A stretch of DNA of 64,000 nt from Candidatus Altimarinota bacterium. GTDB taxonomy: Bacteria; Patescibacteriota; Gracilibacteria; BD1-5; UBA6164. The stretch's first letter is position 1. Each line of letters opens with the position of its first letter. Below, piece after piece: positions 21,427-22,286 of the stretch. The notes beneath the pieces are model-generated. The model was not told where the DNA came from. It was given only the letters and a program-made list of their open reading frames with translations, and did no database searches. The position numbers and the translations under genes are program-made. Location of the stretch: assembly GCA_028713225.1 (NCBI GenBank), contig JAQTOS010000004.1:62001-126000 (forward strand). The letters are read 5' to 3'.

Positions 21427-21463
21427 AAAAACAAAAAAATTAAGAAATATAATTACTGAAAAA

Positions 21464-21627
21464 GACCCCTAAGGAATATCTTTTTATGTAAAGAAATATT
21501 CCTTGGGGTCCTTTATATTTTTTGATATATTTGGACGGTTCCACCCAAGTTCTAGGAAAACCCTAGCTCTTTTTTCTAAAAACCAAACTATTTTCCGAGC
21601 TTCCAAACTCTAGCACTGGTTTTAATA
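21464..21627 (-). ncRNA. Glycine T-box riboswitch leader of glyS
   Basis: On the minus strand the leader holds a Stem I hairpin (GGAAGCTC at 21597-21604 pairs with GAGC at 21566-21569 and TTCC at 21555-21558). Its 3' side has a bulge TAGGGTT, offering GGG or GGU Gly codons. Next comes a perfect antiterminator: CTTGGG (21544-21549), the seven-base T-box bulge TGGAACC (21537-21543), GTCC/GGAC, and CCCAAG (21502-21507). The same CCCAAGG is the 5' arm of a strong terminator (21464-21510), so the two folds exclude each other. TGGA pairs with UCCA at the end of uncharged tRNA-Gly (discriminator U). Starved for Gly-tRNA, the cell should read through into glyS and murI. Confidence 0.9.
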
Positions 21628-21632
21628 AATTC

Positions 21633-21660
21633 ATTATATAGGAGAATTTATTTTTTTCAA
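21633..21660 (-). promoter_or_regulatory. Promoter of the glyS T-box transcript
   Basis: TTGAAA (21655-21660) and TATAAT (21633-21638), spacing 16. It has the same layout as the promoter of the second T-box at 24944. Confidence 0.75.
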
Positions 21661-21709: not shown

Positions 21710-21931
21710 TTAAACAAACATTTTCACATACTTCTCAAGCGAAAGACGTGAAACATTTTCAGAAGCATCAGAGAAAATTTCTCTACTAACATTTTTTATA
21801 TGCAAAGCTGTGGGAGTGCCATTAATATATATACTGGCAGAATCAGGTCTTGTTGGAACAAGACTAACCATAACTTTACGTCCCAATGAATCAATCATAG
21901 GTTTATCCATGACATCTTTCTTTCCGGCCAT
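21710..21931 (-). CDS. Unknown 73-residue protein, UGA-free class
   Basis: Starts MAGKKDVMDKP; the first in-frame ATG at 21949 is rejected because a GGGGGTG site sits just before the ATG at 21931. The sequence (MVSLVPTRPDSASIYINGTP, then SRLSLEKYVKMFV) suggests a small beta-rich fold; no family recognised. Three glycines, all GGN, TAA stop, GC-richer than neighbours. Single-gene unit with its own promoter and terminator. Confidence 0.75.
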   Translation of the reverse strand: MAGKKDVMDKPMIDSLGRKVMVSLVPTRPDSASIYINGTPTALHIKNVSREIFSDASENVSRLSLEKYVKMFV

Positions 21932-22094: not shown

Positions 22095-22286
22095 TCACTT
22101 CATGCAAAGATTTAAAACTTCTTCAAGAGATTTTCCTGAAAGATTTTTAATCTCTGCATCATGTTCATTGTAATATCCACCATAACCTTTACGGACTTTG
22201 TATCCTTGGTATCGTAGATGCATACCATTAACATAGATAAAACCATCACAATCTTCTGTGATTTCTTCACCATTAAATAACATCAC
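22095..22286 (-). CDS. Unknown 63-residue protein, UGA-free class, ends at UGA
   Basis: MLFNGEEITEDCDGFIYVNG at the start, then a basic, Tyr/Gly-rich middle (RYQGYKVRKGYGGYYNEHD) and a helical end (GKSLEEVLNLCMK). No family recognised. Strong GGAGGT before ATG. Eight glycines are GGN, none UGA, yet the frame ends with UGA just before the terminator. With UGA=Gly it would add 22 residues, hydrophobic at first, across the hairpin to TAA at 22029-22031. Either UGA still stops here or the protein carries an unplanned tail. Confidence 0.75.
   Translation of the reverse strand: MMLFNGEEITEDCDGFIYVNGMHLRYQGYKVRKGYGGYYNEHDAEIKNLSGKSLEEVLNLCMK

Follow-up and report, generated by a model that had tools for sequence, protein, structure and literature searches.

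An in silico survey of 2008 placed T-boxes in Firmicutes, Actinobacteria, Chloroflexi, Deinococcus/Thermus and two Proteobacteria (PMC2494555), and among papers accessible without subscription we found no report of a T-box in Gracilibacteria, Patescibacteria, Parcubacteria, Saccharibacteria or the candidate phyla radiation. T-box discriminators contain an RRRxG-Stem III-AA motif, and a G-U pair at the base of A2 senses the 3'-aminoacyl group (PMC7583486). According to the same review, a long Stem I is as a rule required in transcriptional T-boxes, and a short one makes Stem II indispensable (PMC7583486).

In this study, a 64,000-nt stretch of Candidatus Altimarinota bacterium (GCA_028713225.1, contig JAQTOS010000004.1, positions 62,001-126,000), hereafter the window, was analysed. 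It belongs to a Gracilibacteria genome of 1.24 Mb, and on its minus strand the gene glyS is preceded by a promoter (21660-21633) and, after it, a leader about 165 nt long with an intrinsic terminator at its end (21464-21459). With a probability of about 0.88, we regard this leader as a minimal, transcription-attenuating T-box riboswitch for glycine, a reading drawn from comparative sequence analysis.

The glycyl T-box of Bacillus and Geobacillus glyQS (RF00230 class I) resembles the leader in transcriptional antitermination, a UGGN-ACC bulge, the RRRxG-Stem III-AA motif, a glycine codon and the absence of Stem II. However, glyQS has a long Stem I with a side-bulge specifier and interdigitated T-loops (IDTM), whereas here Stem I is about 45 nt long with an apical specifier; the base pair of A2 is G-U there and G-C here, and the leader scores below the Rfam cut-off. 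The ultrashort Stem I T-boxes of actinobacterial ileS, as far as they are described in Sherwood 2015 (as cited in PMC7583486), are alike in having an apical-loop specifier and no IDTM, but they are translational, read Ile and rely on Stem II, whereas the leader studied here has a terminator, reads Gly and lacks Stem II. A minimal transcriptional variant of this kind in Patescibacteria thus appears to be new, as judged from sequence and from the literature available without subscription.

Architecture of the glyS leader

The features of the locus are collected in Table 1. The earlier note on this DNA had described a promoter, an exact antiterminator (CTTGGG, TGGAACC, GTCC/GGAC, CCCAAG) and a mutually exclusive terminator, with murI 3 bases after glyS, and all four were borne out. 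Across 55 leaders, the promoter scan gave 3.1 versus 4.2 in upstream control regions (lower is better), with the -10 element mostly 18-44 nt 5' of the specifier. The terminator uses the 3' strands of A1 and A2 and is therefore mutually exclusive with the antiterminator; the predicted energies are -24.1 kcal/mol for the former versus about -9 to -11 for the latter. The leader fold is more stable than that of shuffled sequences (z -3.4), and GGTGGNACCG occurs only once in the 1.24-Mb genome.

Table 1. Features of the glyS locus, in window coordinates
Feature	Position	Strand	Basis
glyS, glycine--tRNA ligase, 473 aa	20005..21426	-	NCBIfam NF003211, 628.8 bits vs cut-off 312
murI, glutamate racemase, 242 aa	19273..20001	-	TIGR00067, 182.9 bits vs cut-off 146.65
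Promoter TTGAAA (21660-21655), 16-nt spacer, TATAAT (21638-21633)	21633..21660	-	sequence
Short Stem I, ~45 nt	21579..21623	-	sequence; basal helix in centroid fold
Stem I basal helix AAAACCA/UGGUUUU	21623-21617 with 21585-21579	-	
Stem I middle helix CUA/UAG, apical hairpin above	21613-21611 with 21590-21588	-	
Predicted apical specifier hairpin GAG-UUUGGAAG-CUC	21597..21610	-	hairpin control and covariation
Predicted specifier codon GGA, complementary to tRNA-Gly anticodon UCC	21602..21604	-	56 leaders
Stem I 3' bulge GGAAAA	21591..21596	-	sequence
RRRxG-Stem III-AA = AAGAG-CUAGG-GUUUU-CCUAG-AA	21550..21571	-	sequence; motif definition PMC7583486
Antiterminator	21502..21549	-	complete in 59 leaders with compensatory changes
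A1 CUUGGG/CCCAAG	21549-21544/21507-21502	-	
T-box bulge UGGAACC, 7 nt, between A1 and A2	21537..21543	-	UGGA complementary to tRNA UCCA
A2 GUCC/GGAC	21536-21533/21511-21508	-	
Competing intrinsic terminator: hairpin 21511-21464, U-tract 21463-21459	21459..21511	-	predicted energy; overlap

The RRRxG-Stem III-AA motif stands directly before A1, and several other parts of known T-boxes are lacking. The distal Stem I with IDTM is absent, as Stem I ends at the specifier loop. Stem II or IIA/B is likewise absent, since the seven bases between the end of Stem I (21579) and the start of RRRxG (21571) leave no room for it. Instead of sequestration of the Shine-Dalgarno sequence, as in translational control, a terminator with a U-tract is found. 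A K-turn at the base of Stem I is not evident in the window; Stem I flanks of the UGAUGA...GGAG type occur in family f2 and in other classes. At the base of A2, a G-C pair is present in the window and in 42 of 59 leaders, and G-U in 15 of 59; as G-C is also found in two T-boxes before thrS (L252 and L253), the G-U pair was treated as typical but not obligate.

The glyS gene contains eight in-frame UGA codons read as Gly (table 25) and is 88% identical to the glyS of a relative in the same genus. The start of murI follows the glyS stop after 3 bases, with a terminator-like hairpin 3' of murI; among 44 glyS loci compared, this linkage was seen in the window genome only, and glyS-murI was consequently dropped as a conserved unit. 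Upstream of the glyS promoter, two small minus-strand ORFs of 73 and 62 aa (21711-21929 and 22095-22280) lack UGA codons and are each preceded by a purine-rich stretch resembling a ribosome site; they gave no Pfam family above cut-off and no match in the 43 other glyS loci.

Homologous leaders and the position of the specifier

The gene glyS was found in 109 of 118 related genomes, the upstream DNA was read at 107 loci, and a complete antiterminator was present in 59 leaders. When all leaders were aligned with MAFFT, the 3' arm of Stem I came out split, and a smaller seed with a covariance search was therefore adopted. The resulting model, R1, was built from nine leaders including that of the window, which it scores at 83 bits as one of its own seed sequences. 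R1 recovered all 59 aligned leaders (E 5e-19 to 0.08) as well as further ones. Over the class it gave about one match per genome, with 62 of 77 genomes matched in the order and 42 of 48 in the window's family, and some of the leaders lie before a different gene, in operons with glyS as the last member. In several relatives, such T-boxes (L259-L267) lie before genes which, from the look of their sequences, are candidates for an aldo/keto reductase and for RidA-like, MazG-like, nudix-like and small membrane proteins.

Covariance in homologous leaders, on which the earlier note had staked its reading, proved strong. In the alignment of 59 leaders, which was fitted to the structure, 93% of cells pair, and the covariation score is 0.61 versus 0.215 for shuffles and at most 0.144 when the partner strand was slid. 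Both sides change in 21 of 22 pairs, those of Stem III included, and compensatory changes are found in every helix. A sequence-only alignment of the nine leaders pointed in the same direction (0.45 versus 0.21).

The search with Infernal and Rfam RF00230 that the earlier note had proposed formally fails, as the leader is found on the correct strand with 20.1 bits against a cut-off of 93, a gathering score that is a detection threshold and not a biological feature. Over 353 genomes of the class, RF00230 gave matches at E <=0.001 in 33 and reached its cut-off in none. In ten of these 33 genomes, its weak matches fall on glyS leaders of the present type, and these are independent support for T-box identity.

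Regarding the specifier, the conserved element in 56 leaders is an apical loop of about 8 nt carrying U-GGN-R, with GGA in 40, GGC in 14 and GGU in 2, and with a U before and a purine after the codon in 56 of 56. A separate control over all 64 triplets was run because the hairpin anchors had partly been picked by hairpin strength, eight of them being placed by eye; a hairpin with a UGG loop was present in 88% of leaders versus 6% of shuffles and ranked first of the 64 triplets. Both sides change in all six pairs of the apical hairpin.

The earlier note had located the Gly codons in a bulge on the 3' side of Stem I, which would make the leader an ordinary T-box. A GGA does exist there in the window (21596-21594), and in T-boxes with a long Stem I the specifier normally sits in a side bulge (PMC7583486). 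Nevertheless, this GGA is missing in a leader of the same genus (L036), whereas the apical UGGN loop is conserved, has covarying flanks and has a third base that tracks the tRNA genes, so that the bulge placement was rejected and has very little probability left. The specifier is thus most plausibly the GGN in the apical loop of the short Stem I, in the window the GGA within UUUGGAAG. At the position of the 3' bulge, a GGAG-type flank is seen in family f2 and other classes, and GGAG or GGAA in relatives; the bulge GGAAAA is possibly a remnant of the K-turn side.

Two glyS leaders, L061 (2976-3099, minus strand; G055) and L092 (193-316, minus strand; G062), have Stem III and an antiterminator, with a promoter-like TTGACT/TTGACA-TATACT directly upstream that leaves no room for Stem I; the bulge of L061 is UGGGACC. 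These are possible headless T-boxes.

Proposed tRNA reading and charging response, and UGA decoding

The window genome contains tRNA-Gly(UCC) and tRNA(UCA), both ending in UCCA, and no tRNA-Gly(GCC) was seen in it. A tRNA-Gly with discriminator U, without which the earlier note would have given up its reading, is therefore present: the 3' end of tRNA-Gly(UCC) is ...CGCUCCA, and the UGGA of the bulge is complementary to UCCA. The earlier claim of a glycine T-box controlling GlyRS accordingly stands in its anatomy, covariation, tRNA match and gene context, and falls in the position of the specifier.

By a pattern search, which can miss genes, tRNA-Gly(GCC) was present in 12 of 14 genomes with a GGC specifier and was not detected in 40 of 41 with GGA or GGU. 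This gives 12/2 versus 1/40 by genome (p 2.6e-9) and 8/0 versus 1/19 by genus (p 2.9e-6), both p values being too optimistic on account of the relatedness of the genomes. The pattern recurs in several families; G046 and G095 have GGC with no tRNA-Gly(GCC) detected. The third specifier base thus appears to follow the tRNA repertoire, mostly GGC with tRNA-Gly(GCC) and GGA without it, a pattern consistent with joint loss of tRNA-Gly(GCC) and change of the specifier to GGA. In genus g14, leaders L075, L076, L080 and L082 have the specifiers GGA, GGU and GGC though tRNA-Gly(GCC) was not found, and GGU and GGC may there be read through wobble by the UCC tRNA; the linker of these leaders, AAAAGUAAAAC, has no clear Stem III.

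In the proposed mechanism, transcription would start just before the short Stem I, whose apical loop presents GGA, and the nascent leader would capture tRNA-Gly(UCC) by pairing of the anticodon with GGA. When the tRNA is uncharged, its UCCA end would pair with UGGA and stabilise A1/A2, and RNA polymerase would read into glyS and, in this genome, also murI. When the tRNA carries glycine, the antiterminator would fail and the terminator would form. As the leader lacks an elbow-binding module and Stem II and shows no clear K-turn, the anticodon and the acceptor end would be its sole contacts with the tRNA. Affinity for tRNA may be a problem, because a long Stem I is generally needed, or Stem II with a short one, according to the review cited above. 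The G-C pair at the base of A2, where the G-U sensor would be expected, and the Rfam score below cut-off also count against the T-box reading.

Alternatively, the leader might be a constitutive attenuator or a relic, in which the T-box sequence is kept and the tRNA response is gone: the elbow module is lost, Stem II is absent, the A2 sensor pair is altered, and L061 and L092 appear to lack Stem I. However, the match of the specifier to the tRNA gene set and the covariation of the helices across the order argue for continued selection for tRNA reading and make a relic highly improbable. Returning to a functioning glycine T-box, the fuller picture towards which we lean, with clearly less confidence than in the T-box identity itself, is a miniature T-box spread throughout Patescibacteria. 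In it, two tRNA contacts, anticodon and acceptor end, would decide transcription with no elbow contact, no Stem II and, in this family, no K-turn; G-C would replace the G-U sensor, and the codon would have been re-tuned with the loss of tRNA-Gly(GCC).

The earlier note had further supposed that the switch tunes the fidelity of UGA decoding. Such a leader would also read tRNA(UCA) and adjust UGA decoding to its charging, and tRNA(UCA) indeed shares the UCCA end of tRNA-Gly(UCC), while one GlyRS presumably charges both. However, the specifier GGA pairs with tRNA-Gly(UCC) and mismatches tRNA(UCA), and UGA is found in the apical loop of none of 56 leaders. In addition, RF2 was above cut-off in six relatives (G078, G098, G104, G095, G084 and G083) and below it in the genomes tested from the window's order, family f13 and family f15. 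The glyS T-box is present in the first five of these RF2-bearing, standard-code relatives and also in other classes of the phylum, whereas none was found in family f13, which lacks RF2 and has in-frame UGA in glyS. T-boxes in both code groups and none found in f13 argue that the switch is not an adaptation to UGA=Gly; after this comparison the tie to UGA recoding was rejected as not supported, and a code-fidelity switch is very unlikely. With a GlyRS presumably common to both tRNAs, any effect on UGA decoding would be indirect. The preferred reading remains a glycine T-box that would read tRNA-Gly(UCC).

Distribution in the phylum and significance

On 381 sampled genomes of the phylum, R1 gave matches in 15, the window's own included, and those outside the class include glyS leaders with an apical GGN. 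For L293, L295, L298 and L300, the downstream gene is a glycine--tRNA ligase by NCBIfam. Leaders L294 and L295 have GCGAUGA...GAGC or GGAG-type flanks that resemble the canonical base of Stem I, and for this reason the short form seems to be a canonical Stem I truncated above the specifier.

The nearest GlyRS found outside Gracilibacteria is that of Clostridia (about 55%). No T-box was detected by Rfam or R1 in the sampled clostridial glyS leaders, and arrival of the switch with glyS from Clostridia thus has no support.

T-boxes of the class are also found at thrS, ileS, aspS, argG and the ornithine carbamoyltransferase gene. Those before thrS (L252-L258, L292 and L297) occur in other families of the class and phylum, L252-L258 being below the Rfam cut-off; sub-threshold T-boxes at argG, ornithine carbamoyltransferase, ileS and aspS (L272-L291) occur in genomes of the class. 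The Thr, Ile, Asp and arginine-pathway T-boxes (L252-L258 and L272-L291) share the discriminator core with the glyS leader and likewise lie under the cut-off, but the strongest of them align to the full-length Rfam model, long Stem I included, unlike the glyS leader. The class seems to be rich in T-boxes hidden by the Rfam cut-off. In L257, the T-box is followed by an ORF of 755 aa, longer than the ThrRS of relatives, and an extra N-terminal domain is possible.

Gene regulation in Patescibacteria is hardly known, and a glyS T-box that most genomes of an order carry and the standard library overlooks would extend the known range of T-boxes by a phylum. The system also allows one to ask, in a natural setting, whether a short Stem I without Stem II is enough for a transcriptional T-box, which on current accounts it should not be. 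The agreement between specifier and tRNA gene set would be a clear example of a riboswitch that has tracked its ligand. If true, this miniature T-box would be among the smallest natural sensors of tRNA charging.
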